The notes below the pieces were generated by a model. That model worked only from the letters and a program-made list of their open reading frames with translations, made no database searches and had not been told where the DNA came from. From a virus, in IMG/VR virus record IMGVR_UViG_3300025632_000003, positions 1 through 61,451 of that record: a stretch of 61,451 nt of DNA. One strand, written 5' to 3'. The position numbers and the translations under genes are program-made. Positions 39,124-50,950 of this stretch are shown one piece after another. Position 1 is the stretch's first letter; each line of letters opens with the position of its first letter.

Positions 39124-39213
39124 TTATTCTCCGTCTAAGCAATCGGGACACATATCGCAGTAATCAAAGTCACACTTAGTCATAACTTCACCGCACATTT
39201 CGCATTGATCCAT
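39124..39213 (-). CDS. Tiny Cys-rich zinc-finger-like protein, 29 aa
   Basis: Begins MDQCEMCGEV; cysteines at about 4, 7, 14, 19, 22 and 25 form two C-x-x-C pairs plus two more, in an acidic 29-residue chain. The start overlaps the SSB stop as TAATG. Such short zinc ribbons are often missed by gene callers. Binding of zinc is inferred from spacing only. Confidence 0.55.
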   Translation of the reverse strand: MDQCEMCGEVMTKCDFDYCDMCPDCLDGE

Positions 39214-39521
39214 TAGAATGGTAGATCATCTGGTTCTCCAACTGAGGCTGCTGCTGCTTGAGGTTGATCGGTTCTAGGAGCGGCGGCTACATTATCTCCG
39301 TTTGTCCATACAACTTTTACATTCCCTAAATAGATTTTAGCTGCTTTAGCTTCGCGTTCTTCTTTAGACTGCTCAATAACTACTGGTCCTTGATTTCCAT
39401 AGTTGTCTACTTCATCGTTAATAGTAATTGTAATAGGTAAATACTTACCCTTTTTTCCAACATAGATTTTAGACTTGTCAATCATGTCTAAGTTGATACT
39501 CGCTTTAATAATACTTGCCAT
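39213..39521 (-). CDS. ssb: Single-stranded DNA-binding protein
   Basis: A 102-residue protein with an N-terminal OB-fold-like beta region (KIYVGKKGKYLPITITIND), a flexible Ala/Gln-rich linker and the acidic tail DDLPF, the hallmark interaction tail of SSBs. It is the first gene after a promoter-like element and precedes the zinc peptide and primase-helicase, consistent with a replication role. Confidence 0.8.
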   Translation of the reverse strand: MASIIKASINLDMIDKSKIYVGKKGKYLPITITINDEVDNYGNQGPVVIEQSKEEREAKAAKIYLGNVKVVWTNGDNVAAAPRTDQPQAAAASVGEPDDLPF

Positions 39522-39546
39522 TTGTTTTAGTTTTAATTGTTAATCG

Positions 39547-39584
39547 TTTATATTATCTATAGTCATTCGTGTTACATTTGTAAG
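39547..39584 (-). promoter_or_regulatory. Promoter-like element P1 (ssb-primase operon)
   Basis: Copy of the repeated element, read on the minus strand as TACAAA, four bases, ACACGA, nine bases, GATAATATAAA. It ends about 26 bases before the SSB start. It probably drives the replication/nucleotide operon running down to nrdA, since no other copy was seen in 31.5-39.5 kb. Confidence 0.75.
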
Positions 39585-39585
39585 C

Positions 39586-40329
39586 CTATAATGTCTTATT
39601 GATAAAATAGTTTTCCGGTTTAAAGTCCGGGTTTTCGTAAAATAATTTATACTGTTCTACTGCTTGCTGCACTTTGTTCTTACCACTTTCGTAGAAAGAA
39701 TCTGAACAATCGAATATACCGATTTGCCGCGTAGTTTTGTCTATTGCTATGAAGATTAAATCATAACCAAATATCTTACGATAGATGTAGGCTTGACTGT
39801 CGTAATTGTAACGGAAAGCTGAGCTTCTAAACTTTGTTATATCACTGGTTGTTTTAAGATCTATTATTAATCTTTCGTCGTGATTTACTATATCAGCTTT
39901 ACCTTTCCACATCATACCTTCAATCTCACCAATCCCAGGCTGTTCGTATTCGACGTTAATGCCGTTTATTAATCCACTACAAGTTTCGTTAGATGTCATA
40001 GTATCTATAAGTAATTCTAACTTATCTACTTCGTGGGATAACAAACACATTTCGCCACCTGAGATCTCCTTGTACGCTTTAGTATTCCTAGTTGTTGTAC
40101 CTTCTATAATTCTATACTTTTTTAATTTGTCAGGTTCTAGTATAGCTGTATGAAAATAACCACCAATCAAAAAATTAATGTTTGGCTTCTGTGGAGTACC
40201 AAGCGCAAGAGGGTTTGTTAACAGTGTAGAAATATCAGAGTTGCTTCTAAATTGTCGGCCAAAGTCACCATAGTAATCTTCATCGCTTTTAAGTCTATCT
40301 AATATTTCTTTTTTGTTAAGATCATTCAT
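39586..40329 (-). CDS. RecE/Cas4-like PD-(D/E)XK exonuclease
   Basis: A 247-residue protein with the nuclease core GKADIV, then IIDLKTT (Asp and D-x-K), and a following YDSQAYIYRKIFG helix typical of the RecB/RecE-like exonucleases used in phage recombination. It is encoded directly after the Erf-type annealing protein, the usual exonuclease-annealase pair that repairs and concatenates phage DNA. Confidence 0.8.
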   Translation of the reverse strand: MNDLNKKEILDRLKSDEDYYGDFGRQFRSNSDISTLLTNPLALGTPQKPNINFLIGGYFHTAILEPDKLKKYRIIEGTTTRNTKAYKEISGGEMCLLSHEVDKLELLIDTMTSNETCSGLINGINVEYEQPGIGEIEGMMWKGKADIVNHDERLIIDLKTTSDITKFRSSAFRYNYDSQAYIYRKIFGYDLIFIAIDKTTRQIGIFDCSDSFYESGKNKVQQAVEQYKLFYENPDFKPENYFINKTL

Positions 40330-40333
40330 TGTT

Positions 40334-40882
40334 TTACAGGGTTGTTAATTTTGCCTCGATTTCTTTAGACAAGGCATACTTTGCTTTTATTGCTTCAACT
40401 TTACCACCTGCTTTAATATATTCCTGCGCCTTCTTAAAGGCTGGATCTTTTTCTGAGGTTAAGGTATTTTTAGTTTTAGCAGCGGTTGCATTTCCGCTTC
40501 CATTAGTGGCGTCACTATCAGCCGTGTCATCAATTAAGAATAAGTTTCCGAGTGCATATTTTTTTCCGTAAGAGGAAGCACTACCAAATTTTTGTGGCAT
40601 TTGCATACCTTTCTGAACTAAATCTACACCAACAATAGCAGCAGCGTGTATAGCACTTTCGCCGTCAGAGATAGTAGCCTTTGATTCCAAAATAGGGAAT
40701 GGCTCATTCTGAATTAACACTTCGTTAATTGTTACGCTTACTCCTAATTCTAATAAATAGGGTTTTGTTGCTTCTAGGATGTCTTCGGCTGATCTGAAGT
40801 TGTACTTGCCGAATGAATTAAATCTACTTTTTTTAGATTTGAATTTAGTCTGGATAGTAGCCAGTTTTTCATTTAATTTCAT
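40334..40882 (-). CDS. erf: Erf-family single-strand annealing protein
   Basis: A 182-residue protein whose N terminus (MKLNEKLATIQTKFKSKK, then NSFGKYNFRSAEDILEA) matches the Erf/essential-recombination-function superfamily, including the later FGSASSYGKKYALGNLF segment. It anneals complementary single strands in partnership with the adjacent exonuclease. The upstream gap 40883-40943 has no clear copy of the promoter-like element. Confidence 0.88.
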   Translation of the reverse strand: MKLNEKLATIQTKFKSKKSRFNSFGKYNFRSAEDILEATKPYLLELGVSVTINEVLIQNEPFPILESKATISDGESAIHAAAIVGVDLVQKGMQMPQKFGSASSYGKKYALGNLFLIDDTADSDATNGSGNATAAKTKNTLTSEKDPAFKKAQEYIKAGGKVEAIKAKYALSKEIEAKLTTL

Positions 40883-40943
40883 TAGATTGCATTTTGTTGT
40901 TATTAATATAATTACGCATTATCACTTTAATTTAAGCCTTAAG

Positions 40944-41705
40944 TTAAAGATAATCAATCACTTGTGTTGCGTCGACGTTGGCGATTAAACGGTCAATTGC
41001 TTCTTTTTTTATTTGAGAAACAATTACAATAGCTGTTACAGCAGTGATTCCCACTCGCTTAGCTATTTCTTTAGCTGGCACTTTTTCGCAATCTAAACCA
41101 TAGGACATTCTTAATATATCATATTGTTTTTCCGTAAGATGCTCTCGCATTATACTTAACAAATAAGTGTTGAGTAAGTCAATATTATATGGTTCAGATT
41201 TATCAGCTATATTCATAACCCACGAGGAATTTTCATCATCTTCTCCTTTGTACTCGTTGTCGTAGCTAGCGAATACACTGTTGAAAAACAATGACACTAA
41301 TTTATCGTCATTAGGATTTTTTCTTATTTGTATTAATTTGTTTTCAGGAATCTTTATGTCTCCTCTGTTTATGTCTATAGCTCTCCGTATTGCTCCTTTA
41401 ATTCTTTTGGATAGAAACGACTTTAATGTTTTTTCTATGTCCTCAGAACTGTTTAATTGTTCCCAGTCTAATTTATCAACCGCTAAAACTAATCCAGCAT
41501 TACCTTCTTGTATTAGATCGTTTATACTTAAAACACCTGAAGCTTGATCGCTGGTTGAAAATTTTCTAGCTATATTCTCTACTAAAGGCAGAAATGAAAC
41601 TATTAGCTCATTCCTGGTATAATCTTGAAAAAATTGCTCTAGTGGCATGGATCTTTTTACATCGTTTTTATATCTAACATAATTCTGTATATTGTATTTT
41701 TTCAT
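40944..41705 (-). CDS. Phage-encoded sigma-70-family RNA polymerase sigma factor
   Basis: A 253-residue protein with region 2 (NDLIQEGNAGLVLAVDKLDW and RIKGAIRRAID) and a region-4 helix-turn-helix (LTEKQYDILRMSYGLD and AKEIAKRVGITAV). It would redirect host RNA polymerase to phage promoters; no phage RNA polymerase was recognised, so this is the most likely transcriptional switch. A promoter-like element lies only six bases before the ATG shown, so the transcript may be leaderless or translation may start at the Met 19 codons in (41648). Confidence 0.85.
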   Translation of the reverse strand: MKKYNIQNYVRYKNDVKRSMPLEQFFQDYTRNELIVSFLPLVENIARKFSTSDQASGVLSINDLIQEGNAGLVLAVDKLDWEQLNSSEDIEKTLKSFLSKRIKGAIRRAIDINRGDIKIPENKLIQIRKNPNDDKLVSLFFNSVFASYDNEYKGEDDENSSWVMNIADKSEPYNIDLLNTYLLSIMREHLTEKQYDILRMSYGLDCEKVPAKEIAKRVGITAVTAIVIVSQIKKEAIDRLIANVDATQVIDYL

Positions 41706-41710
41706 ATATT

Positions 41711-41745
41711 CATATTATCAAACACTGTTCGTGTTATTTTTGTAA
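41711..41745 (-). promoter_or_regulatory. Promoter-like element P2 (sigma factor)
   Basis: Minus-strand copy: TACAAA, four bases, ACACGA, nine bases, GATAATATGAA. The inner dyad CGAAC/GTTTG is complementary with one G-T pair. It overlaps the 3' end of the upstream gene. Confidence 0.7.
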
Positions 41746-42366
41746 ACTAATTTGTTGGTTTAAAAGAGTTTTTTCTTTCTTCAGTTCGTTGCCCATGTTT
41801 CTATGTATTGTTCTAACCGAACATTTTAACTCTTCAGATAGCTTGTTTATAGTTATCTTTTCATTTTCGTTGTTTATTAGAACCATAGCATCGTATATTT
41901 CTGATTCAGATATACTCTTCCTACCAACCATCTTGCCTACTATAGACAATTTTTCTCTCATAGTCAGACCAGTAAAATCTTTAAATATTATCTTCCTTAA
42001 TTTATTAGGAGGTGGCTTGTCTAAATCCATGAGGGAAACATCATATACCATATTATCTAGTAATTGATCAGAAACAGTAAATGTCACAAATCCGTTTTCT
42101 CTTTTGCATACATGCTTTGCAATCGTATTAAAGTCTTCTTGGTCCATTTGAGGATTCAAGTACCATAACACATACAGATGCCATTTAAGACTCTTATAAG
42201 TCGTTATTTTAGCTTTAGAGTTAAAGAGTGTATAGCATTCATGCGTACCATTCTCATAAAAGCTACCCCATTCAAAGACCTCTGTAGGTTTGTCTACTAT
42301 TGGATCTCGCTTATAAGTAACTTTATATCTATGCAGGTAATCCATTCTTCTTTCGTATTGTGACAT
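41734..42366 (-). CDS. Helix-turn-helix protein, 210 aa
   Basis: The C terminus (ITINKLSEELKCSVRTIHRNM) is a clear helix-turn-helix. The N-terminal ~130 residues are alpha/beta with aromatic residues and no recognised family. It lies directly before the sigma gene and may be a transcription regulator or replication initiator. It contains one GCTATACAC word, in a different reading frame from the other copies. Confidence 0.65.
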   Translation of the reverse strand: MSQYERRMDYLHRYKVTYKRDPIVDKPTEVFEWGSFYENGTHECYTLFNSKAKITTYKSLKWHLYVLWYLNPQMDQEDFNTIAKHVCKRENGFVTFTVSDQLLDNMVYDVSLMDLDKPPPNKLRKIIFKDFTGLTMREKLSIVGKMVGRKSISESEIYDAMVLINNENEKITINKLSEELKCSVRTIHRNMGNELKKEKTLLNQQISLQK

Positions 42367-42376
42367 TAGCTTATTA

Positions 42377-42412
42377 CTATTATATTATACTAGCTATTGT
42401 CGCATTTCTGCC
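42377..42412 (-). promoter_or_regulatory. Degenerate promoter-like element P3
   Basis: Minus strand reads ATGCGA, nine bases, GTATAATATAAT, matching the ACACGA-N9-GATAATATAA core with a few changes; the TACAAA block is not clear. It lies 11 bases before the helix-turn-helix gene. Confidence 0.4.
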
Positions 42413-42633
42413 TAGTATATAATTAATTTTAATCTTCTGTTATATTTTTTTAAAAGCTTAGCTTTATTTTCTATGTTACCTTTTACTACAGTTATGTTTT
42501 TATTACAGCTATATTCACTTTTGAATGAAGATATAATTATCTCGTGGTTTAATTCAGCTATTCTGTCTTGTACTAGGTGCACGTGTTTCCGCTTTCTTCT
42601 GCTCTTTTTTAACTTTTGTATTAATGTTCGCAT
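42412..42633 (-). CDS. Basic hypothetical protein, 73 aa
   Basis: Very Lys/Arg-rich (IQKLKKSRRKRKHVHLVQDR) helical protein, overlapping the upstream gene by 13 bases. A nucleic-acid-binding role is plausible from charge only. Confidence 0.55.
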   Translation of the reverse strand: MRTLIQKLKKSRRKRKHVHLVQDRIAELNHEIIISSFKSEYSCNKNITVVKGNIENKAKLLKKYNRRLKLIIY

Positions 42634-43112
42634 AATTCGTTAATGTTAAGTGGACGTATAATTTTTTGCTCATTTTTATTTGCTATTTTGTATTTATCTT
42701 GTTCGTAATAATTCCAGTAAGCTGAAACGCTGTTGTTTTTTACTTTATATTCGTCCGGCATACACTGGGGAGGTTCTGTAAAAGACCCTGTTGGTATATT
42801 TGAAGGGGCTACTGCTAAAATATCTTTGCATTTTGTAATTGTTAAGTGGGTTTTATTATATCGTTTTGTGTATTCAGCACCTAATGCTAGCATGTGATTA
42901 TATAGCCATTGATAATTCTCGTTGTTTGCTCGTACCCATACAGAGCTAGGATGATTTAAGTGAGACTTTTTGTACGGTACATTTTCATTGCCTAACGCAT
43001 GATGAGCAGTACACAACATTTGAGCACACTCAAGTATCATCTTAACTTTGTGTTTATCGTAAAAGTAACTAGCAGCTACTTTAGGATCTGGGTGTAAATA
43101 AAATATATTCAT
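42621..43112 (-). CDS. Conserved phage protein with YDKHKVKM motif, 163 aa
   Basis: Begins MNIFYLHPDPKVAASYFYDK; the pattern 'D-K-H-x-V-K-M-x-x-E-x-A-Q-M-L-C-T-A-H' is shared by many phage proteins sometimes labelled pyrimidine-dimer glycosylase-like. The HPSSVWVRANNENYQWL segment is also typical. The biochemical role is unproven; a DNA-repair label should be treated as tentative. The start overlaps the preceding stop as TAATG, and it belongs to the ligase operon. Confidence 0.65.
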   Translation of the reverse strand: MNIFYLHPDPKVAASYFYDKHKVKMILECAQMLCTAHHALGNENVPYKKSHLNHPSSVWVRANNENYQWLYNHMLALGAEYTKRYNKTHLTITKCKDILAVAPSNIPTGSFTEPPQCMPDEYKVKNNSVSAYWNYYEQDKYKIANKNEQKIIRPLNINELCEH

Positions 43113-43219
43113 TAGTATCTTTTTTTACTTAGTCTGTTATAATGTTTGTCTAATAATAGGTTTGCGACTTCTTCGCTTATCATGTTTTCGTTGTATAGTT
43201 GCCATATTAGTTTACTCAT
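43112..43219 (-). CDS. Small protein downstream of ligase, 35 aa
   Basis: The start at 43219 (MSKLIWQLYNENMISEE) is chosen because it overlaps the ligase stop by eight bases (ATGAGTAA); a longer frame from 43318 would run deep inside the ligase gene. It ends in a basic KHYNRLSKKRY tail and couples to the next gene by TAATG. Confidence 0.5.
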   Translation of the reverse strand: MSKLIWQLYNENMISEEVANLLLDKHYNRLSKKRY

Positions 43220-44039
43220 AGTTACGTAAGGTTTTATATAACGGGTGACGGTAGCTATTAGCTTTAGTACGCTCGAAATAAGTGAATGTAGCACGCTTGC
43301 CAACATAATTTTTAACATTAGCTAGTATATCGCGGCGATCTTGAAAGTTGTAGCCTTTGCCGATAGGACAGCCGAACTCAATACCGTTGTCGTCGCGCAT
43401 TAAGAACTTGCCGATTAAGCCAGTGAACTTGCCTTTGCCGGGTACATAGCCTACAATTGTAGCTTCGGTGTCGTGAAAATCTTTGAACTTTTGTAAGTTG
43501 TAAGAACGTTTACATTCGTAAACACCGTTAAGACGCAATATAGAGCCTTCGTAGCCTTCGTCAAGCCAGTTTTCGTGTATAGCATTAGCTAAGTCGCGAG
43601 TTGCAACAGAATGCGTAGGAACATACTTAACACAATAAGAATACAATGCTGCAGTAGACAAAAATTTCATACGCTCTTCGAACATAGCTGAAGTATCAAT
43701 GTAATCGTAACAATGGAATTGAACGAGATCACACGATTCAACGCGATCGGAAGCAGTTGGTTTGGTTTTACGAACAAGTGAAATGATTTTTTCGAAATCG
43801 TTTTTTAGTTCGTGGTTGTATAATTCACCGTCTAGTATTAAGTCTGGGTGTTTGTGAAACACTGGGACTAAGCTAGATAGTATATGGTCGATGTTTAGCC
43901 ACGGTTTACCTGTGCGTGAAAATGCACCGGCTTTAGAAATTACACAACGTACACCGTCAAGCTTAGGCTGCATGAATACTTTCTCGGACCAGTTAACAGG
44001 TTTTTTGTCTACTTTGTATGCGAGCATTGGTTTTATCAT
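43212..44039 (-). CDS. ATP-dependent DNA ligase
   Basis: A 275-residue minimal ligase. Motif I KLDGVR near residue 28 has the adenylated Lys; LILDGELY, EGSILR and LQKFKD match motifs III, IV and V. The C-terminal OB-fold part is short, with no zinc finger or BRCT domain. It seals nicks in phage DNA. Followed in the operon by several small genes and preceded by promoter-like element P4. It contains a GCTATACAC word encoding NAIH. Confidence 0.9.
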   Translation of the reverse strand: MIKPMLAYKVDKKPVNWSEKVFMQPKLDGVRCVISKAGAFSRTGKPWLNIDHILSSLVPVFHKHPDLILDGELYNHELKNDFEKIISLVRKTKPTASDRVESCDLVQFHCYDYIDTSAMFEERMKFLSTAALYSYCVKYVPTHSVATRDLANAIHENWLDEGYEGSILRLNGVYECKRSYNLQKFKDFHDTEATIVGYVPGKGKFTGLIGKFLMRDDNGIEFGCPIGKGYNFQDRRDILANVKNYVGKRATFTYFERTKANSYRHPLYKTLRNYE

Positions 44040-44060
44040 AATGTTTATATTTTAGTTACA

Positions 44061-44097
44061 TTTATATTATCAATATATAATCGTGTTTTGTTTGTAA
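44061..44097 (-). promoter_or_regulatory. Promoter-like element P4 (ligase operon)
   Basis: Minus strand: TACAAA, four bases, ACACGA, nine bases, GATAATATAAATG, then TAAC. It lies 22 bases before the ligase start and directly after the preceding gene's stop. Confidence 0.78.
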
Positions 44098-44098
44098 G

Positions 44099-44368
44099 TT
44101 AGTCTTCGTCTAAGAATTCAGATATTTTGGTTTGTAGCTTAATAGCTAATGAATAGTCTTCATCTTTTACAGCTTGAGCTAGTTTTGTTTCAAGTGATTC
44201 AAGAGTTACTTCTTCAGTTGCTTTATTAGGCATCACTTCCCATGTACCTGATTGAATGTCGATCTGCTTAGCAAATTCTTCATCATATTCTTTTTGTTTT
44301 TTTTCCATAGCAGCGATGACAGTCTTAGCCACCGCTGTAGCTAGCTTTTCTATTTCTTTATCAGTCAT
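44099..44368 (-). CDS. UVR-motif-like helical protein, 89 aa
   Basis: The C-terminal half, LETKLAQAVKDEDYSLAIKL, resembles the UVR motif of UvrB/UvrC and ClpC-type proteins (E-x-A-x-x-x-E-D-Y-x-x-A-x-x-L). The N terminus is helical and charged. It is coupled to the KTSC gene. A protein-interaction role is likely; DNA repair is not implied by this motif alone. Confidence 0.6.
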   Translation of the reverse strand: MTDKEIEKLATAVAKTVIAAMEKKQKEYDEEFAKQIDIQSGTWEVMPNKATEEVTLESLETKLAQAVKDEDYSLAIKLQTKISEFLDED

Positions 44369-44598
44369 TAAGCGAAGCTGTAGTTATATACAGGTAGCAC
44401 GTATTTGTTAATAAATTTACCTTTAGATTCAGAAATTCTTAAGCCTTCAAACACATGGTTTGGTACTTTAGTATAATTGTAACTTCTTCCGTTGGTAAAG
44501 GTTAACTTTAAGCGGTACTTATCATATTGATATTCAGCTGTTGAGATTGCGGTAGAGTTAACATCTACAGATTGCATTGGTAATACTAATTTGTTCAT
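44368..44598 (-). CDS. KTSC-domain protein, 76 aa
   Basis: Matches the small KTSC domain: STAISTAEYQYDKYRLKLTF, then NGRSYNYTKVP and ESKGKFINKYV. The family is frequent in phages and plasmids, and its role is still unclear. First gene after promoter-like element P5. Confidence 0.78.
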   Translation of the reverse strand: MNKLVLPMQSVDVNSTAISTAEYQYDKYRLKLTFTNGRSYNYTKVPNHVFEGLRISESKGKFINKYVLPVYNYSFA

Positions 44599-44620
44599 AA
44601 GTTTAATTTGTTTTAGTTAT

Positions 44621-44656
44621 TATTATTATCGATTGTTGTTCGTGTTTATTTTGTAA
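44621..44656 (-). promoter_or_regulatory. Promoter-like element P5 (KTSC operon)
   Basis: Minus strand: TACAAA, four bases, ACACGA, nine bases, GATAATAATAA. It lies 23 bases before the KTSC start. Confidence 0.72.
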
Positions 44657-44658
44657 GA

Positions 44659-45264
44659 TTAATGGAATACTAATCCTACTTTGTGATTTTTACTAAACCA
44701 TCTCGTTGCCATTAAGTCAATCTCAGAAGAATCCACATAGTCAGCAGAAACAAGATCGCTGTGGCTAGAAAATATTCTGGTGTGTCGGTGTTTTCTTTCA
44801 TTTATTAATTCTTTTTGTTTACCGGAGTCACTAAATATTATGTCATAGTTACTAGGCAAAGGTACACTTAAAAACATTTTGATCATGTTGGTATAACTGT
44901 AAAACCGCACGTTTGGGTTGGCTTTTGCAACCTCAATCCACTTATTTAGATATGCGCGAGAATAATAATCGCCACTATCATGGACTCTTACGTAGTCAGG
45001 TTTCTTCTTACGTATTTCAGTGTTCATAGCTTCTACAAAATCATCTGTTTTGCTTAGCTCATAACGCTTTTCAAACGCCGGTTTTACATTAGACCAGATG
45101 TAGGCTCCTTTCTTGGCGTAACAGAACTTTACACATTCGTCAGCCATAGGACATGTTAACTTACCACTTGCAGATTTATATGCAGGTATGCCAAAGTTAA
45201 ACACACGAAGCCCTAATACTTTAGATGTCTTCTTTAATTTAGTATTTTGAGTTAGTAAATTCAT
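44659..45264 (-). CDS. Gene product 88-like protein (Cys-rich, 201 aa)
   Basis: Contains TCPMADECVKFCYAKKGAY near residues 37-55 and VRVHDSGDYYSRAYLNKW near 92-110, both hallmarks of the phage 'gene product 88' family, which has a cysteine cluster reminiscent of radical-SAM-like proteins. Function is not established. Last gene of its operon; its stop abuts promoter-like element P5. Confidence 0.75.
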   Translation of the reverse strand: MNLLTQNTKLKKTSKVLGLRVFNFGIPAYKSASGKLTCPMADECVKFCYAKKGAYIWSNVKPAFEKRYELSKTDDFVEAMNTEIRKKKPDYVRVHDSGDYYSRAYLNKWIEVAKANPNVRFYSYTNMIKMFLSVPLPSNYDIIFSDSGKQKELINERKHRHTRIFSSHSDLVSADYVDSSEIDLMATRWFSKNHKVGLVFH

Positions 45265-45265
45265 A

Positions 45266-45529
45266 TTAGTCTAATAATATCATATAAGCCTCGCTGTTAT
45301 GCGTGCGAAACCAAGTTAACGCTTTTTGAAAGTCACTTATTTGCTTTTCTGTTACTGCTTTTGGAGCCATTTCGAAAACATACTGCGATCCCATTATAAA
45401 ATCGTATATAGATAGCTCTAAGCCATTAAGTGTATAACATTCGCCGGTAAAACTGTTGGTAACTCTTTCACCTTCGTCGTAAATCATTCCTTTAAACCAT
45501 TTAGGCACTACTTGTTCTTTAGTCTTCAT
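45266..45529 (-). CDS. Hypothetical protein, 87 aa
   Basis: The start at 45529 (MKTKEQVVPKWFKGM) is chosen because it overlaps the upstream stop by 11 bases (ATGAAGACTAA), as elsewhere in this block; an ATG at 45556 would add nine residues. The C-terminal QKALTWFRTHNSEAYM is conserved-looking in small phage proteins. Function unknown. Confidence 0.6.
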   Translation of the reverse strand: MKTKEQVVPKWFKGMIYDEGERVTNSFTGECYTLNGLELSIYDFIMGSQYVFEMAPKAVTEKQISDFQKALTWFRTHNSEAYMILLD

Positions 45530-45872
45530 CTTCTTCGATATTAAATAATTCTTCAATTTCTACAGATAATTGCTCAGCGATCTCGTCTACATTGTTGAAT
45601 TCGATGTTGCTTAATTCAAGTTGGTTGTTGTAGTTTATTTCAAAATCGTAATCATAATCACTACCGTTATTGAAATCGTAATTGTCGAGTATATGTTGTA
45701 TAACCTCTCGTATTTCGTTTACTGTTTCTTTAGTGATAACAGGTTTGTTAACATTCGCTAACTCTCGTTGCGCAATATTTAGATCGTCTTTTAAGTTTTG
45801 AGCGTTTGCTTCCACCGCGTTTAAGGTTAATTCTAGATCGTTTACTTTTACTTCTAATTCGTGTTTTGTCAT
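45519..45872 (-). CDS. Acidic coiled-coil protein, 117 aa
   Basis: N-terminal coiled coil (MTKHELEVKVNDLELTLNAV) followed by an acidic, Asp/Asn/Glu-rich C-terminal half. The strong negative charge suggests DNA mimicry or binding to a basic partner, but that is speculative. Part of the P6 operon. Confidence 0.6.
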   Translation of the reverse strand: MTKHELEVKVNDLELTLNAVEANAQNLKDDLNIAQRELANVNKPVITKETVNEIREVIQHILDNYDFNNGSDYDYDFEINYNNQLELSNIEFNNVDEIAEQLSVEIEELFNIEEDED

Positions 45873-45876
45873 ATTA

Positions 45877-46110
45877 TTATATTTTATTTGATTTTTCTAT
45901 TAATTCAGCAATATACTGCCATACTTTTAATTCTGTTTTGTTACCTTCGGCGATTAATGTAGCTTGCTCAAGAGTTATATCAGCACCGTAATTTTTTGTT
46001 TCAAGATTGTGTTCGTCTTGTTGTATTATTATTTGACACATCTCTACTTTAGCGAAAGCTTTGTTGCTAGCTCGCTGGTGTATAGCATTAATCTTCGAAT
46101 GCATCGCCAA
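45877..46110 (-). CDS. Hypothetical protein, 77 aa
   Basis: Helical protein starting MAMHSKINAIHQRASNK; the INAIH segment is encoded by a GCTATACAC word. It overlaps the upstream gene's end by 23 bases; a Met two codons later is an alternative start. Function unknown. Confidence 0.55.
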   Translation of the reverse strand: MAMHSKINAIHQRASNKAFAKVEMCQIIIQQDEHNLETKNYGADITLEQATLIAEGNKTELKVWQYIAELIEKSNKI

Positions 46111-46291
46111 AAAAATTAAGATCGCAAGTTGAGACTACATCGAAAGCAATACCGTATTTGACTTCAGTAAAAAATTCTTCGTAAGATAGTACTCTTACTA
46201 TTTCATGATGCAAGTGAGGCATATTAGAATAGCGATTTGCTAATTTTTGTTTGTGCTCTGGTTTAAGGCGTTCGTAAAGTGATAGTCTCAT
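46088..46291 (-). CDS. Hypothetical protein, 67 aa
   Basis: Begins MRLSLYERLKPEHKQKL with helices followed by a beta-rich C terminus (YGIAFDVVSTCDLNFFG). First gene after promoter-like element P6. No known family. Confidence 0.6.
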   Translation of the reverse strand: MRLSLYERLKPEHKQKLANRYSNMPHLHHEIVRVLSYEEFFTEVKYGIAFDVVSTCDLNFFGDAFED

Positions 46292-46318
46292 ATTATTATT
46301 ATTGTTTTTATTTGTTAC

Positions 46319-46356
46319 ATTTATATTATCGATCGGCGATCGTGTTTTGTTTGTAA
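46319..46356 (-). promoter_or_regulatory. Promoter-like element P6
   Basis: Minus strand: TACAAA, four bases, ACACGA, nine bases, GATAATATAAATG. The inner dyad CGATC-GCC-GATCG is perfect. It lies 28 bases before the gene at 46088-46291 and overlaps the 3' end of the preceding gene. Confidence 0.78.
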
Positions 46357-46592
46357 TCCTCGTTATACGCTGTAGCTAGCTCTATATATTCTACTTCAGC
46401 TAAAAATGCTCTCGCATAATCTTCTATTAAGTAAGGTGTATTGCAAGTGTTAGGGTTTCTAAACACGCAATCTTCAACTATTTCTTTTAATTCGCTTGGT
46501 TGAACTACATAGTCAAACTCTATATCGCCAAGTATATCTACGTTAATTCTCCACGTAGCATAGTTACTCCAGCCATTGTATTTTTTACTCAT
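46326..46592 (-). CDS. DUF7249-like protein, 88 aa
   Basis: Starts MSKKYNGWSNYATWRINVDI; the 'Y-N-G-W-[ST]-N-Y-A-T-W' opening is a recognisable small phage family (named DUF7249 from memory). It is mainly helical after the motif. Its role is not known. Its 3' end overlaps promoter-like element P6. Confidence 0.7.
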   Translation of the reverse strand: MSKKYNGWSNYATWRINVDILGDIEFDYVVQPSELKEIVEDCVFRNPNTCNTPYLIEDYARAFLAEVEYIELATAYNEDYKQNTIADR

Positions 46593-46599
46593 AATAATT

Positions 46600-46911
46600 T
46601 TATTTTAAGGTTGTTTGATCATGGTATGCTTCTTGAAATTCATAAGTAATATCTTGCTCAAACTTCTTGAAAGAGTCTACGCCGTATAGTTTTTCGTATA
46701 GTTCTTTGAAGCCTTGGTATTTACAATACTGATCGTTTATATAGTATGCTATTTCGACATCGCTTATTTCGTGATCATAAGCTTTTTTACGCTCGTTGTA
46801 TATAGCGTGACTCCACACGGTTGCATTTACTTTGAATAAACCTAAGTCTTTAGTTAATCCAGTGCTTAAACTGTAACTTTTGTCCTCGAATGTTTTAGTT
46901 ATTTTACTCAT
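46600..46911 (-). CDS. Hypothetical protein, 103 aa
   Basis: Alpha/beta protein beginning MSKITKTFEDKSYSLSTGLT, with a FKELYEKLYGVDSFKKFEQD helix at the C terminus. It lies between the RNA cluster and the DUF7249-like gene. No family recognised. Confidence 0.6.
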   Translation of the reverse strand: MSKITKTFEDKSYSLSTGLTKDLGLFKVNATVWSHAIYNERKKAYDHEISDVEIAYYINDQYCKYQGFKELYEKLYGVDSFKKFEQDITYEFQEAYHDQTTLK

Positions 46912-46930
46912 AATATTTATTTTAAATTAG

Positions 46931-47007
46931 TGGAGGTGGAGAGATTCGAACTCTCTTCCGCGATAGTTCCATATAGGCTTTCTATCACGTCAATACCAGG
47001 TCACCCC
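46931..47007 (-). ncRNA. tmRNA-like/tRNA-like RNA C (77 nt)
   Basis: On the minus strand the RNA starts GGGGTGACCTGGTATTGACG, close to the 5' tRNA-like end of tmRNA (GGGGnUGAnnCUGGnnUnGACG). It ends with a T-arm GAGAG-TTCGAAT-CTCTC, an acceptor strand CACCTCC and a discriminator A; no CCA is encoded. An eight-pair stem CGTGATAG/CTATCGCG takes the place of the tmRNA P2 helix, but its loop is only 15 bases and holds no tag frame or pseudoknots. The acceptor can pair with a G-U at the 3:70 position if one C bulges, or as six contiguous pairs shifted by one. It fits no ordinary tRNA cloverleaf. Confidence 0.5.
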
Positions 47008-47011
47008 AAAA

Positions 47012-47085
47012 CGGTTATCTTCGTCACTTTGACGGTCGGACTTCCACCGTGCCAGCGATTAATTACTTCGCCGCTCGTGATACCG
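47012..47085 (-). ncRNA. Structured segment between the two tRNA-like RNAs
   Basis: CGGTATC (47079-47085) pairs with GATAACCG (47012-47019) with one bulged A. Inside lie hairpins GGCGA/TCGCT around an AGTAATTAA loop and ACGGT/ACCGT, plus a small GTC/GAC hairpin. The TAATTAA loop recalls the stop-codon hairpin of tmRNA, but no convincing tag peptide precedes it. It may be an RNA in its own right or a spacer that folds. Confidence 0.3.
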
Positions 47086-47091
47086 TATTTT

Positions 47092-47200
47092 GTAACTAGT
47101 GAGGATTCGAACCTCATACCCGTCGGTAGCGTTGCTTTGGGTCTCTGGCTTTGAAGAGTATTCAAAGGTGCTTGTACCACTAGCGCTCCATGCCTAGTCA
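47092..47200 (-). ncRNA. tRNA-like RNA A (109 nt), atypical
   Basis: The ends TGACTAG (47194-47200) and CTAGTTA (47093-47099) form a seven-pair acceptor stem. A canonical T-arm TGAGG-TTCGAAT-CCTCA precedes the 3' strand. A short D-arm-like GCT-AGTGGTACA-AGC and a strong hairpin CTTTGAA-TACTC-TTCAAAG follow. The molecule is about 20 bases longer than a class-II tRNA, with extra bases before the D-arm and a 32-base variable region, so I cannot assign an anticodon with confidence. Confidence 0.5.
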
Positions 47201-47207
47201 TTGTTGT

Positions 47208-47393
47208 TTACTTATTTAGCTGATCGTACATTTTTGACACAGCAAGCGCCATTACTTCAGAGTGTATAGCATTATACTCGTCGCCATTTTGGTCAAAGTC
47301 CTCTAATTGCCAATCAATACTGTCATTCATTAATTCCAGAGTGACGTCCGCAATACCGCTTGCGATCTCGTCAATTTGCTTAGTTACACTCAT
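47208..47393 (-). CDS. Acidic hypothetical protein, 61 aa
   Basis: Helical and acidic (MSVTKQIDEIASGIADVTLE), with a YNAIHSEVM segment encoded by a GCTATACAC word. It lies just upstream of the RNA cluster in the P7 operon. Function unknown. Confidence 0.6.
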   Translation of the reverse strand: MSVTKQIDEIASGIADVTLELMNDSIDWQLEDFDQNGDEYNAIHSEVMALAVSKMYDQLNK

Positions 47394-47395
47394 AG

Positions 47396-47572
47396 TTACG
47401 CTGGTATATAAGTTAAACCTTTATAATTAAACCACTCTGTGATACCGTCTTTGTCTTCGTTGGCATCATATTCGAATGCGAACAGTGAAGGCAAGTTGCC
47501 TATTAAGTATGGTTTGTAAACTTTGTTGTCTAGTAAGATGTTTTTACTTTTTAGGAATTTTATATGTTTCAT
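47396..47572 (-). CDS. Hypothetical protein, 58 aa
   Basis: The start at 47572 (MKHIKFLKSKNILLD) is preferred; a Met seven codons earlier lies inside promoter-like element P7. The chosen start leaves about 20 bases from the element, like most other operons here. It has a C-terminal EWFNYKGLTYIPA strand pair. Function unknown. Confidence 0.6.
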   Translation of the reverse strand: MKHIKFLKSKNILLDNKVYKPYLIGNLPSLFAFEYDANEDKDGITEWFNYKGLTYIPA

Positions 47573-47592
47573 AGTTATATATTTTAGATTCA

Positions 47593-47629
47593 ATTATATT
47601 ATCGATTGATGATCGTATTTTTTTTGTAA
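47593..47629 (-). promoter_or_regulatory. Promoter-like element P7
   Basis: Minus strand: TACAAA, four bases, ATACGA, nine bases, GATAATATAATTG. The inner dyad CGAT/ATCG is intact. It heads the operon containing the RNA cluster and overlaps the 3' end of the preceding small gene. Confidence 0.75.
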
Positions 47630-47725
47630 ATGTTTTACTTTCCTAGAATACTTTTTCTTATTCTTTTCAACGCTAGGTCTCGTTGCTTCCCAAACTTCTT
47701 GTTTAGTTATTACTATCCTTTTCAC
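47594..47725 (-). CDS. Basic hypothetical protein, 43 aa, GTG start
   Basis: Starts at a GTG two bases after the upstream stop and encodes a Lys-rich chain (KRIVITKQEVWEATRPSV). Its last codons run through promoter-like element P7. The GTG start and small size make this tentative. Confidence 0.4.
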   Translation of the reverse strand: MKRIVITKQEVWEATRPSVEKNKKKYSRKVKHLQKKYDHQSII

Positions 47726-47726
47726 G

Positions 47727-47987
47727 CTAATCTAGTTTATACTCGTCAATCTCATAAGTGCTAGCGATAGCTTTTTTAGTTAACTCTTCAGCGTCTAGTA
47801 ATGCTTGTCTATTATCTAGGTAAAAACTGATCTTCACTTTCATTTCATCTTCATTTCTTGTACCGAAAGAAGTAGTTGACAATCCACTTAGTAATCTATC
47901 GTCACTACATTGGTAGCCACTTGCTAGCGTGTTGTCATAAGTTCTCCACTCTCTGTATTCGTAGGTTATTCCTTTGTAGTTTTTCAT
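47727..47987 (-). CDS. Hypothetical protein, 86 aa
   Basis: Begins MKNYKGITYEYREWRTYDNT; aromatic-rich N-terminal half and a helical C-terminal half (LLDAEELTKKAIASTY, in part). First gene after promoter-like element P8. No known family. Confidence 0.6.
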   Translation of the reverse strand: MKNYKGITYEYREWRTYDNTLASGYQCSDDRLLSGLSTTSFGTRNEDEMKVKISFYLDNRQALLDAEELTKKAIASTYEIDEYKLD

Positions 47988-48012
47988 TATATTATTGTTT
48001 TGTTATTAGATT

Positions 48013-48050
48013 CATTTATATTATCGATCGGCAATCGTATTTGTTTTGTA
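48013..48050 (-). promoter_or_regulatory. Promoter-like element P8
   Basis: Minus strand: TACAAA, four bases, ATACGA, nine bases, GATAATATAAATG. The inner dyad CGATT-GCC-GATCG is complementary with one G-T pair. It lies 26 bases before the gene at 47727-47987. Confidence 0.77.
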
Positions 48051-48287
48051 TTACCAATCGAACTTAATCTTGTACACTGATTCTAGATCATTGTGACGCC
48101 ATAGATCGGTGTGTGCATGTTTTCTACCACGACTCCCCGCTCCTTTTACTTTCACCTTAATACTTTTGTATTGTTTTTCCGTTACTCCACTACAAGATCC
48201 GTTGATCGCAACAACATTGTTACGGTGTATAGCATTCGCTTTCTTCTGGTTTTTAACGTACTCACACGCTTCTTTCATTGTCATCAT
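48051..48287 (-). CDS. Basic hypothetical protein, 78 aa
   Basis: Lys/Arg/Gly-rich protein with MKEACEYVKNQKKANAIHRN at the N terminus and a VKGAGSRGRKHAHTDLWRH segment. The start region overlaps the upstream TGA; Met 2 or Met 4 could also serve. It contains the NAIH segment encoded by a GCTATACAC word. Function unknown. Confidence 0.6.
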   Translation of the reverse strand: MMTMKEACEYVKNQKKANAIHRNNVVAINGSCSGVTEKQYKSIKVKVKGAGSRGRKHAHTDLWRHNDLESVYKIKFDW

Positions 48288-48460
48288 AGTATTCGTTTTA
48301 ATTGTTCTTTAATTGCTAGTACATCCTCGTCAGTTACTTCAACCTCTTCGTCGCTTTCCCGATCAAATATAATATCGTACATTGCGTCATGAAAATGGTT
48401 ACCCACTATTTCATCTAAGAGATTAGCGATATCTTTAATTTCTTCCCACGTTAAATTCAT
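48284..48460 (-). CDS. Acidic hypothetical protein, 58 aa
   Basis: Begins MNLTWEEIKDIANLLDEIVG; helical, with an acidic run ESDEEVEVTED and a C-terminal KEQLKRIL. The TGA stop overlaps the next start. Second gene of the P9 operon. Confidence 0.6.
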   Translation of the reverse strand: MNLTWEEIKDIANLLDEIVGNHFHDAMYDIIFDRESDEEVEVTDEDVLAIKEQLKRIL

Positions 48461-48466
48461 AATTAT

Positions 48467-48619
48467 TTATTTATTTAATTTATTTCTTAAATCCCATAAT
48501 CTATAGTATTTTCTTCTTACTTCAAGATCTCGATCGTCTTGGTATTCGTCGTTTAGTTGTTCCATTAGTGTCTCGCACGCTAAGGTAAGATAACTTATTT
48601 CTTGTTTATCAAAGTTCAT
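48467..48619 (-). CDS. Hypothetical protein, 50 aa
   Basis: Helical protein MNFDKQEISYLTLACETLME with a charged C terminus (LEVRRKYYRLWDLRNK). First gene after promoter-like element P9, about 21 bases from it. Confidence 0.6.
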   Translation of the reverse strand: MNFDKQEISYLTLACETLMEQLNDEYQDDRDLEVRRKYYRLWDLRNKLNK

Positions 48620-48633
48620 ACAGTATTTATTTA

Positions 48634-48795
48634 TTATTCAATTATATTATCGATGGCGGTTCGTATCAATTTTGTATTTATTTTTTTATTTACTCCGGCA
48701 ATTTCCTCAAATTCCGCACTAGTTATCTTACCCTCTAAGAGTAGTATGTAATCTCTCGTCACATCTCGTCTAGTTATACTGTTTATTACTCTCAT
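48634..48795 (-). CDS. Small helical protein, 53 aa
   Basis: Begins MRVINSITRRDVTRDYILLL, then EGKITSAEFEEIAG, which resembles part of a small DNA-binding domain. The start overlaps the preceding stop as TAATG. Its last codons (AIDNIIE) run through promoter-like element P9, so the element lies inside coding DNA. Confidence 0.55.
   Translation of the reverse strand: MRVINSITRRDVTRDYILLLEGKITSAEFEEIAGVNKKINTKLIRTAIDNIIE
48640..48676 (-). promoter_or_regulatory. Promoter-like element P9
   Basis: Minus strand: TACAAA, four bases, ATACGA, nine bases, GATAATATAATTG. Only the outer CGA/TCG of the dyad is kept. It heads the operon of three small genes at 48051-48619. Confidence 0.72.
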
Positions 48796-49052
48796 TACTT
48801 ACAATTGTTTTCATTGAAGTTTATAAGGTGTTTAATACGATCAACGTGATTTGGTATTAATACTCTTTCAACTCTTGAATAAGGTTGTGGTATATCTTCA
48901 AACTTTTGTTTGTTTATTTGATATAATCTAGAGTGAGAATACTTTGTTGATACTCTAACATACCCACTTTGGTAAGTTACACCTAATCGTCCGTCACTTA
49001 GTTTAAAATGTAGTGATCCACCTTTAGTTACTTTTAGTAATTCCATATTCAT
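48795..49052 (-). CDS. Basic beta-rich protein, 85 aa
   Basis: Begins MNMELLKVTKGGSLHFKLSD; strands alternate with basic residues (SGYVRVSTKYSHSRLYQINK). A second Met two codons in is an alternative start. It is coupled to the next gene by TAATG. Function unknown. Confidence 0.6.
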   Translation of the reverse strand: MNMELLKVTKGGSLHFKLSDGRLGVTYQSGYVRVSTKYSHSRLYQINKQKFEDIPQPYSRVERVLIPNHVDRIKHLINFNENNCK

Positions 49053-49065
49053 TTAGTTTTATTGG

Positions 49066-49176
49066 TTAATATCTTTTCACTGCATGGATAGCACGAGCAC
49101 ATTCTTTAAGTTCGTTTAGAACTAATATTGCAAAGTGATTAAATTTTCGTCTAGTAGTAGTTAATTTTAATTTCAT
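49066..49176 (-). CDS. Basic hypothetical protein, 36 aa
   Basis: Very short Lys/Arg-rich helical peptide, MKLKLTTTRRKFNHFAILVL then NELKECARA. It lies 20 bases after promoter-like element P10 and 13 bases before the next gene, the same spacing as other operons here. Size makes this tentative. Confidence 0.45.
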   Translation of the reverse strand: MKLKLTTTRRKFNHFAILVLNELKECARAIHAVKRY

Positions 49177-49195
49177 AGTTATTATATTTTTTATT

Positions 49196-49233
49196 CATTT
49201 ATATTATCGAAATAGTTTCGTGTTAATTTTGTA
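49196..49233 (-). promoter_or_regulatory. Promoter-like element P10
   Basis: Minus strand: TACAAA, four bases, ACACGA, nine bases, GATAATATAAATG. The inner dyad CGAAA-CTA-TTTCG is perfect. Confidence 0.77.
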
Positions 49234-49389
49234 TTAAATCGTTTCCCAAAATAAATCTCTTTGTTCGTCATTTAAACCGATCAAATTGTCTTGACCAAAT
49301 AGACTTTGACAAATCTTAGTTCTTCGTTTTGATTCATTAAATGCGTTAGTCACTTCGTCCCACGCTTCGTTGTTAGTTAAATATCTCAT
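49234..49389 (-). CDS. Hypothetical protein, 51 aa
   Basis: Begins MRYLTNNEAWDEVTNAFNES, with a KRRTKICQSLFGQDNL middle. It has its own upstream element (P11), 41 bases before the start, and its stop abuts P10. Function unknown. Confidence 0.55.
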   Translation of the reverse strand: MRYLTNNEAWDEVTNAFNESKRRTKICQSLFGQDNLIGLNDEQRDLFWETI

Positions 49390-49430
49390 TTTATTATAGT
49401 TTTTAGTTAGTTATATATTTGTTTTTGTTA

Positions 49431-49468
49431 CATTTATATTATCGAAGATACATCGTATTTATCTTGTA
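49431..49468 (-). promoter_or_regulatory. Promoter-like element P11
   Basis: Minus strand: TACAAG, four bases, ATACGA, nine bases, GATAATATAAATG, then TAAC. It lies upstream of the gene at 49234-49389. Confidence 0.73.
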
Positions 49469-49539
49469 AAAAGTATATTGTTTATTAAGTAGTAAAAAAA
49501 GTATGGTAGGTATTACTCTAAGTCTAAGTGTGTACAATT

Positions 49540-49694
49540 AAATTTATTGTAGGATGGAGTCTACTCTTCCGGGTAGATTTGATCTACTCAGGCCAATTTT
49601 ACTTAAAAAAAAGTGTGACGTTAGCTAGTTATATAATTATAGTAGTAGGCTATTGTCACCTTTTTGGAAAGACCCGAGATTGAGGCGAATCTCG
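49540..49694. promoter_or_regulatory. Structured noncoding stretch with GTGAC hairpin, copy A
   Basis: About 240 bases (49470-49709) carry no gene. They hold a GTAGAT/ATCTAC hairpin near 49573-49587; a 45-base hairpin element at 49615-49659 with GTGAC/GTCAC ends, a TAGTTATATAA apex side and ATAG-TAGTAGG-CTAT; and a seven-pair hairpin CGAGATT/AATCTCG at 49675-49694 just after the stop of the gene at 49710. The 45-base element recurs at 50868-50911. The last hairpin may be a terminator for the minus-strand gene. Confidence 0.5.
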
Positions 49695-49709
49695 TTACAT
49701 CGCCCTAGA

Positions 49710-50039
49710 TTACTTTACTTCATCTAGCTCAGACCTTTCACTTAGATGCCTAACATTTGCCGGCATATCGGTACTTTGAGACCAATAACCTCTTTTAATC
49801 CAACAAGGCATTATAGACAATTTAGGTAACATTAAGTTTAATACCTCATCATGATTGTAAGTCACTTGAACAGACGGTTTAGTTTTCGTCGGTTTAGTAT
49901 TAAAAGTTATGATTTGGTTTCGACCTAACCATGATTTTCTTACTACAAAGTTTTTTCTTTCGATCGGTGGGAAGATTTGTAGTTTTTCTTCGTTAGACAT
50001 TTTCGCAATCGCGTTGGTAATTAATTCTTGATTTGACAT
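49710..50039 (-). CDS. Hypothetical protein, 109 aa
   Basis: Begins MSNQELITNAIAKMSNEEKL, then a basic beta-rich region (FVVRKSWLGRNQIITFNTK) and a helical C terminus. It has its own upstream element (P12). Size and isolation resemble early host-takeover proteins of other phages, but no family is recognised. Confidence 0.65.
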   Translation of the reverse strand: MSNQELITNAIAKMSNEEKLQIFPPIERKNFVVRKSWLGRNQIITFNTKPTKTKPSVQVTYNHDEVLNLMLPKLSIMPCWIKRGYWSQSTDMPANVRHLSERSELDEVK

Positions 50040-50075
50040 AATTTTATATTTATTTAAGTTATTATTTGTTTGTTA

Positions 50076-50114
50076 CATTTATATTATCGAATACTATTCG
50101 TGTTAAGTTTGTAA
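50076..50114 (-). promoter_or_regulatory. Promoter-like element P12
   Basis: Minus strand: TACAAA, four bases, ACACGA, nine bases, GATAATATAAATG, then TAAC. The inner dyad CGAATAGTATTCG is perfect. Confidence 0.78.
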
Positions 50115-50154
50115 GTGTGTGTGCATCGTAAATGCTGTGCAAGCTATACACGGA

Positions 50155-50295
50155 TCACGATGAGGTTCCGAACGCTTCGATAGCTCTCATCATTCTGATC
50201 TGGTCTTCTGTCATCTGGACAGGTTCTGATTCGATTCGTGTGACCTGGACGTACTTGGTTCCGTCTGGTCTAGTCATTAGTTTACTTGTATACAT
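50155..50295 (-). CDS. Hypothetical protein, 46 aa
   Basis: Begins MYTSKLMTRPDGTKYVQVTR, with a helical C-terminal half (MTEDQIRMMRAIEAFG). It has its own upstream element (P13), 22 bases before the start. Function unknown. Confidence 0.55.
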   Translation of the reverse strand: MYTSKLMTRPDGTKYVQVTRIESEPVQMTEDQIRMMRAIEAFGTSS

Positions 50296-50316
50296 ATTGT
50301 TTTATTATTTGTTATT

Positions 50317-50355
50317 CGTATATATTATCGGTGGTAATTCGTATTTTAGTTGTAA
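50317..50355 (-). promoter_or_regulatory. Promoter-like element P13
   Basis: Minus strand: TACAAC, four bases, ATACGA, nine bases, GATAATATATACG. A less exact copy, with the dyad largely lost; it overlaps the 3' end of the preceding small gene. Confidence 0.65.
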
Positions 50356-50504
50356 ATTCCGAATGATACTGATGCGCCATTTGTGAAAGCATCGATCAAG
50401 ATGGCCGTTGCACACACGCATACGAATGCCGTGATGCCGTATACGATTGTTCCGATTGTTGCGTTAGTGATTGGATTGTGGTGGAATTTGTTTTGAGATT
50501 TCAT
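50346..50504 (-). CDS. Small membrane protein, 52 aa
   Basis: Begins MKSQNKFHHNPITNATIGTI and continues with a hydrophobic VYGITAFVCVCATAILI segment, giving one membrane span at about residues 17-40. It is the first gene of the minus-strand block, so probably made very early; a small inner-membrane protein here could act in superinfection exclusion, but that is a guess. Its GC content is higher than that of its neighbours. Confidence 0.55.
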   Translation of the reverse strand: MKSQNKFHHNPITNATIGTIVYGITAFVCVCATAILIDAFTNGASVSFGIYN

Positions 50505-50532
50505 AAGTATAATATTTATTTGTTTTTGTTAC

Positions 50533-50569
50533 ACTTATATTATCGGTGTTAAATCGTATTATATTTGTA
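50533..50569 (-). promoter_or_regulatory. Promoter-like element P14
   Basis: Minus strand: TACAAA, four bases, ATACGA, nine bases, GATAATATAAGTG, then TAAC. It lies 29 bases before the membrane-protein gene and is the outermost copy of the family. Confidence 0.75.
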
Positions 50570-50570
50570 G

Positions 50571-50950
50571 TTGTATATACTATACACGTTGTGCTGTAAC
50601 CAGGACCGGGACCGTGTGATGTGAGCCGTGTGCCAGTGAAAAAGCTAGGATCCTGCACGGAAAATAGTAGTTGCTGCTGTAATGCTATACACGTTGTGCT
50701 GGGATTATCCTGAACCGTGGACCGTAAACGTAAAACGTAGGTGGGGGCTGGGTAAACGAAACGAGTTTGTGAATAAGGGGTAGCGTTGATATAGTATATT
50801 GCAACACAATGACTATATATTTGCAACAAAAAATTTTTTACTATATTTTTTTTAAAGTATTGAAAACGTGACAGTAGGTAGTTATATATAATAGTAACAG
50901 GCTATCGTCACACTTTTAGTTTTGGATATAATTGCGTAATCATACTTCGT
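50571..50950. other. Noncoding divergence region; candidate origin/regulatory switch
   Basis: Some 380 bases with no convincing gene. It holds two exact copies of CTATACACGTTGTGCTG (50580-50596 and 50685-50701), each followed by a GGACCG-containing tract, so the duplication is longer but imperfect. A GC-richer stretch is followed by an AT-rich tract (about 50780-50860) with two TTGCAAC words, then the 44-base GTGAC hairpin element (50868-50911). Direct repeats beside an AT-rich tract at a point of divergence are typical of replication origins, but there is no functional proof. Confidence 0.45.
50868..50911. promoter_or_regulatory. GTGAC hairpin element, copy B
   Basis: GTGAC...GTCAC ends with ATAG-TAACAGG-CTAT inside; closely matches the copy at 49615-49659. 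It lies 40 bases before the first plus-strand gene. Downstream, TTTTGG (50918-50923) and TACTTCG (50941-50947) are 17 bases apart, similar to Bacteroidota promoter boxes (TTTG and TAnnTTTG), so this may be the late promoter region. Confidence 0.5.

Follow-up and report, generated by a model that had tools for sequence, protein, structure and literature searches.

The minus-strand arm of a viral genome of 61,451 nucleotides (IMG/VR record IMGVR_UViG_3300025632_000003, positions 1 to 61,451; hereafter the window) carries 13 copies of a tripartite element which, judging from their sequence, are very likely promoters of a single phage-specific class. The promoter interpretation is supported by conservation of the element across a family of related viruses, by its restriction to one strand, by its position before start codons, and by the purine found at the predicted transcription start (+1). 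The reader of these promoters is probably a sigma factor encoded by the phage in the same block of genes and acting on host RNA polymerase, as suggested by the joint presence and joint absence of sigma gene and motif and by a promoter base, at position −13, which is uniform within a phage.

Both strands of the window were searched for TACAAA-N4-AYACGA-N9-GATAATATAAATG, allowing up to 3 mismatches, with 100 dinucleotide shuffles as a control. This returned 13 matches between 39545 and 50569, on the minus strand throughout, and none in the shuffles. The initial annotation had described at least 13 near-identical promoter-like elements, which were recovered, and had numbered them up to 14; a 14th copy does not exist, because in a weight matrix built from the 13 copies, which themselves score 44–56 bits, no further site on either strand exceeds 2.5 bits. 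The same scan found no copy before the plus-strand structural genes. The ATG of the next open reading frame (ORF) follows the predicted +1 at a distance of 19–42 nt in 12 cases and of 2 nt at the sigma gene, in agreement with the originally reported 15–45 bases and closer sigma copy. Genes of the minus-strand arm include those for ligase, Erf, exonuclease, primase-helicase, thymidylate synthase and ribonucleotide reductase, and those of the plus strand terminase, portal, virion and chaperonin genes. The 13 motif matches and the sigma gene are located as follows.

39545–39582, minus strand: promoter copy before the gene at 39213–39521 and the 8-kb replication/nucleotide operon, predicted +1 at 39545
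40944–41705, minus strand: phage sigma-70 family factor of 253 amino acids, proposed promoter reader (Pfam Sigma70_r2/r4, PHROG 351, PDB profile and fold matches)
41707–41744, minus strand: promoter copy before the sigma gene, predicted +1 at 41707, ATG at 41705, predicted near-leaderless
44059–44096, minus strand: promoter copy before the DNA ligase gene, predicted +1 at 44059
44618–44655, minus strand: promoter copy, predicted +1 at 44618
46318–46355, minus strand: promoter copy, predicted +1 at 46318
47591–47628, minus strand: promoter copy, predicted +1 at 47591
48013–48050, minus strand: promoter copy, predicted +1 at 48013
48639–48676, minus strand: promoter copy, predicted +1 at 48639
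49196–49233, minus strand: promoter copy, predicted +1 at 49196
49431–49468, minus strand: promoter copy, predicted +1 at 49431
50076–50113, minus strand: promoter copy, predicted +1 at 50076
50317–50354, minus strand: promoter copy, predicted +1 at 50317
50532–50569, minus strand: promoter copy, first of the early block, predicted +1 at 50532

The family set comprised 81 sequences, i.e. the window and 80 related viral contigs fetched by their sigma gene (58–100% identity). A matrix refined on these sigma-bearing sequences yields the consensus TTACAAAC-NN-AATACGA-N9-GATAATATAAATR. With the G of GATAAT numbered −12 and the final R of GATAATATAAATR numbered +1, the −35 region TTACAAAC extends from −38 to −31, the middle element AATACGA from −28 to −22, and the −10 element GATAATAT from −12 to −5, GATAAT being the most strongly conserved part of the motif. 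A purine occupies the position 12 nt past the G of GATAAT in virtually all family sites (119 of 121 sites in the loci of a later scan); such a purine-only position matches what a +1 should show, and was counted in favour of promoter function. Wherever the sigma gene has a copy of its own, its ATG lies at about +1 to +4, which fixes the register, speaks against a start further downstream, and implies that the sigma mRNA is near-leaderless. An ORF-opening ATG is found within 60 nt of +1 at 86% of sites, compared to 34% of nearby positions (median distance 20 nt, n=388), and the −10 element falls within a same-strand ORF at 7% of sites, compared to 64% of nearby positions (n=388).

The scan of genome and relatives with a motif model that had been suggested at the outset detected 477 sites in 74 of the 81 sequences, and 2 sites on reverse strands. 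In a held-out test on 34 loci of the later scan, 121 sites were forward, none reverse, and none occurred in reversed sequence. Whole records commonly contain 5–14 sites on one strand and 0–1 on the other, with 0–1 control matches. Among records of at least 60 kb, all 19 with the motif have the sigma gene and all 22 with the sigma gene have the motif. Fifteen shorter records have the motif but lack both sigma and its neighbour Erf; one of these records (G033) ends inside the sigma gene, just past its first codons. The motif is absent from phages with a homologous terminase and no sigma gene, namely MW202828 (TerL 62% identical), Elemovirus and Maribacter phage Panino, in which Sigma70_r4 gave no match, as well as from sigma-less IMG/VR contigs of 60.6, 60.4, 58.8 and 56.5 kb with a homologous terminase. 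Among the records and relatives compared, absence of sigma goes with absence of the motif, an association that is confounded by descent.

An alignment search retrieved 489 candidate relatives of the window sigma in IMG/VR, and none from 50,697 phage records, among which no cultured relative has the same sigma. A literature search of partial coverage found no description of this motif. Terminase relatives of known host infect Flavobacterium, Cellulophaga, Tenacibaculum and Maribacter, and the host of the window phage is therefore probably a member of the Flavobacteriia. The carriers, which typically have about ten near-identical promoter copies before early genes, form a large group of mostly marine viruses, probably with hosts in the phylum Bacteroidota. 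Two unusual records were noted in these searches. The 129.5-kb contig IMGVR_UViG_3300047157_000162 (loci L035 and L042) contains two sigma genes that differ from each other and are separated by about 62 kb; each is accompanied by a promoter set of its own, with −13 mostly C/T in one and all A in the other. The contig is probably an assembly product that fuses two phages; a genuine double phage, if confirmed, would be striking. The sole match for sigma in genome_contigs (L089, JAAGZR010000268.1) is a 9.9-kb phage contig in a metagenome-assembled genome labelled Aliivibrio, in which it was probably mis-binned.

The sigma gene reported in this block by the initial annotation, together with the promoter copy preceding it, was verified, with Pfam Sigma70_r2 and Sigma70_r4 both above cut-off. 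In the structural model, domains sigma2 (residues about 31–114) and sigma4 (about 175–243) are confident and the linker is poorly ordered (mean predicted local distance difference test score 76). The best sequence relatives in the PDB are the SigA and FliA sigma factors, and the fold matches the sigma chains of initiation complexes, with a low whole-chain TM-score (about 0.3) because domain placement differs. Thus, a sigma-70 family protein is encoded alongside one motif of fixed −35/−10 geometry that precedes many genes, as in the class of promoters read by phage sigma factors. Clues on the reader were also obtained from variation of the motif between phages. Base −13 is uniform among non-homologous copies within a phage and differs between phages (z=35.5): each of the four bases is used by some phages, and at least 11 switches can be counted along the sigma tree. 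Positions −36, −35, −31, −30, −26, −23 and −14 are also phage-specific, to a lesser degree, and the spacer from −19 to −16 is not. Such concerted change of several sites per genome points to one shared, phage-specific reader.

Several observations weigh against the phage sigma as this reader. Sigma and motif may both stem from one gain in the clade, which would by itself account for their co-occurrence. Promoter positions were compared with sigma columns for covariation, both raw and corrected for distance with HTH (helix-turn-helix), Erf and exonuclease proteins as controls, and neither analysis gave a clear sigma signal; in the distance-corrected test, DNA-contacting sigma residues did not stand out for −13, and a weak lean appeared only for −23 and −14. 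No simple residue code for −13 emerged. A host-type promoter of the form TTG-N17-22-TAnnTTTG, which might supply the first sigma, was sought where the early block of the window begins, and none turned up. Finally, sigma factors do not normally contact a region such as the middle element, which may require a second protein.

A candidate for such a protein is encoded directly before sigma in most loci, often overlapping the sigma start codon. The gene and an associated palindrome are found in the window at the following positions.

41734–42366, minus strand: HTH protein, candidate regulator or partner (Pfam HTH_11 at its cut-off), conserved just upstream of sigma
42361–42404, no strand assigned: imperfect 44-bp palindrome GYGACAATAG...CTAATGTCAC, operator-like, with the HTH start codon in its right arm
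49615–49659 and 50864–50908: further copies of the palindrome, one of the three copies lying at the early/late divide

The HTH gene has no promoter copy of its own and starts inside the palindrome, which qualifies the otherwise fair initial description of a copy before nearly every minus-strand operon. Across the group, the palindrome (GTGACAATAG...GGCTAATGTCAC) keeps the pattern GTGAC..TAGCC..TTACT...AGTAA..GGCTA..GTCAC, and its right arm contains the HTH start codon in many phages. Further copies lie 7–9 kb upstream, near the early/late divide (37 matches, compared to 0 in a reversed control), and the palindrome also precedes the first late gene in two relatives. By its sequence and placement it looks like an autoregulatory operator, and the arrangement suggests a two-protein switch of HTH protein and sigma. 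As a refinement of the proposed role of sigma, with which its probability overlaps, a second phage DNA-binding protein, plausibly the HTH protein, could bind the middle or −35 element. A conserved element at −28 to −22 is unusual, the HTH gene is conserved next to sigma, and the sole small group without a detectable HTH gene (L053, L071 and L076) has an altered −35, TCGAAA. The altered −35 of this group is probably a single event, however, the CGA core of the middle element does not follow the presence or absence of the HTH gene, and the palindrome at the HTH start codon is a better candidate for the HTH binding site, so that a direct promoter role of this protein is rather doubtful.

It is less probable still, and in our view unlikely, that the copies are early promoters read by a primary or alternative sigma factor of the host, with the phage sigma serving other promoters. 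Phages often begin with host-type promoters, the copies cover the earliest-looking genes and sigma itself, and no other route to the first sigma was found. Nevertheless, base −13 is phage-specific, sigma-less related phages, some of them isolated on Flavobacteriia, lack the motif, and before late genes no further common motif emerged, the 66 late gaps searched in 7 genomes yielding only AT-rich words in excess of shuffles. Moreover, primary promoters of Bacteroidota feature TTTG at −33 and TAnnTTTG at −7, with T−12, A−11 and T−8 to G−5 as the bases of the −7 element TAHHTTTG, and the motif matches this element at only 2 of 6 key bases (PMC6847099). The copies share the likely host group and A-rich leaders without Shine-Dalgarno sequences with promoters of Flavobacteriia, but lack the TTTG of the −7 element and have an E. 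coli-like GATAAT at −12. A motif unlike TTTG/TAHHTTTG, with GATAAT close to an E. coli −10 that the sigma of the phylum does not use, points to the phage sigma. The initial annotation was therefore correct that this is not a Bacteroidota promoter, since the motif matrix fits neither the −33 nor the −7 element. Its statement that the element is not of sigma-70 type by spacing holds only in part. With CAAACN as the −35 hexamer, a 17-bp spacer separates it from GATAAT, which is identical to TATAAT in 5 of 6 positions; it is the −35 of the family, ACAAAC instead of TTGACA, that departs from a standard sigma-70 promoter (TTGACA, 17±1 bp, TATAAT). CGATAA in some copies recalls sigma-28 (FliA), which is among the nearest solved relatives of the phage sigma, but the sigma-28 pattern TAAA-N15-GCCGATAA is not followed, the C before GATAA being unconserved in a family whose base −13 varies among C, A, G and T between phages.

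A register similar to that of T4 late promoters, with TATAAATG as the −10 element, AATACGA at −35 and a start about 6–7 nt further downstream, appears very improbable. TATAAATG indeed resembles the T4 late element TATAAATA, and AATACGA would fall at the appropriate distance, but this would place the start past the conserved ATG, within the coding sequence of sigma, in every phage with a sigma-gene copy, and both the strong conservation of GATAAT and the purine-only site suit the other register. T4 late promoters themselves have no −35, TATAAATA being the sole element at −10, unlike the arrangement seen here. N4-like hairpin promoters served by an injected single-chain RNA polymerase, with the CGA...TCG dyad as the hairpin, can be practically dismissed: although a perfect stem of 5 bp closing a 3-nt loop can be formed by 3 of the 13 copies in the window, no conserved stem-loop near −12 exists in relatives, pairing is at chance within phages, and the large proteins examined show, at the sequence level, no sign of a virion or phage RNA polymerase, the two giant virion-type proteins having neither a polymerase family match nor a DxDxD loop.

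The dyad itself had been reported as fully complementary in five window copies (P2, P6, P8, P10, P12), instead of the three in which all five Watson-Crick pairs are present. It is not a feature of the family: in 422 family sites the inner pairs occur 143 and 116 times, compared to 153±7 and 123±7 in within-phage shuffles, and only 14 sites have all five pairs. The TC preceding GATAAT, of which the C (in TCG) is base −13 in the window, is not conserved in relatives. The dyad, and with it any hairpin mechanism, was consequently rejected.

Promoters recognised by a phage sigma factor are a known kind. SPO1 gp28 and T4 gp55 redirect host polymerase to a class of phage promoters, as proposed here for the window sigma; sequences and geometry differ, and −35 and middle elements are conserved in the present family. 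In phages phiEco32 and 7-11, a phage sigma acts with host polymerase, a short motif (consensus TAATGTATA) is repeated before late structural and middle genes, and structural and functional arms lie on opposite strands (PMC4331800). The window shares the phage sigma, the short repeated motif and the opposed arms, but its motif is tripartite and confined to the functional (early) arm, with none seen before structural genes. New are thus the tripartite form, the use in the early arm, and the wide distribution in a group of which no cultured representative is known to encode this sigma.

Other features of the window were noted. The decamer TGCTATACAC, often following RA, is its most over-represented 10-mer, with 11 exact copies compared to 0.17 expected:

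33283, 38842, 40646, 42228, 43575, 46078, 47262 and 48225, minus strand: decamer TGCTATACAC
27456, 36810 and 50683, plus strand: decamer TGCTATACAC

The copies lie mostly inside early-arm genes, in more than one reading frame and about 1–2.5 kb apart. Related loci contain 260 copies (62 of 81 sequences), favouring the early strand by 204:56, and the sigma-less related phages checked have none. The decamer may be a Chi-like, antitermination or protein-binding site. An apparently non-coding stretch among the small early genes (46930–47201) contains tRNA-like phrases (GGTTCGAATCC, GAGTTCGAATCTCTCCACCTCCAC) and possibly represents degenerate tRNAs, although ARAGORN detected no tRNA or tmRNA. A 1673-amino-acid virion protein (11751–16772) matches the C-terminal domain of the crAss-like phage muzzle protein below the Pfam cut-off (E=8e-5), hinting at a distant tie to crAss-like podoviruses. 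The 3009-amino-acid protein encoded at 21116–30145, with almost no recognisable domain besides a weak polynucleotide-kinase-like stretch at residues 2091–2279, is possibly an injected virion protein.

We propose that host core RNA polymerase associated with the phage sigma would recognise TTACAAAC at −35 and GATAATAT at −10, and probably also the middle element, and would start transcription at the conserved purine 12 nt past the G of GATAAT. This class would drive all or most of the minus-strand arm, comprising small early genes and those for ligase, sigma, recombination, replication and nucleotide metabolism. The copy before the sigma gene would generate positive feedback, and the first sigma transcripts may come from a few host-type starts or from a palindrome-controlled HTH–sigma operon. 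It is tempting to speculate further that ACAAAC, AATACGA and GATAATAT constitute a three-element code co-evolving with its own sigma, and possibly with the HTH partner, whose −13 specificity switched repeatedly over hundreds of uncultured phages to give orthogonal sigma/promoter pairs which the sigma of the phylum ignores, a scenario we hold as tentative and somewhat short of probable.

The takeover of transcription by phages of Bacteroidota is poorly understood. The sigma factor described here, which did not occur in the phage records searched, is common to hundreds of uncultured, mostly marine phages, and their promoter class is strong enough for base-by-base prediction of start sites. Taken together, sigma and its signals look like a private switch that redirects the gene-reading machinery of the host to the virus. 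If so, these phages would offer a natural series of orthogonal sigma/promoter pairs, the −13 switches would provide a test bed for sigma/promoter co-evolution, and the promoters may serve as expression parts in hosts in which E. coli-type promoters fail.

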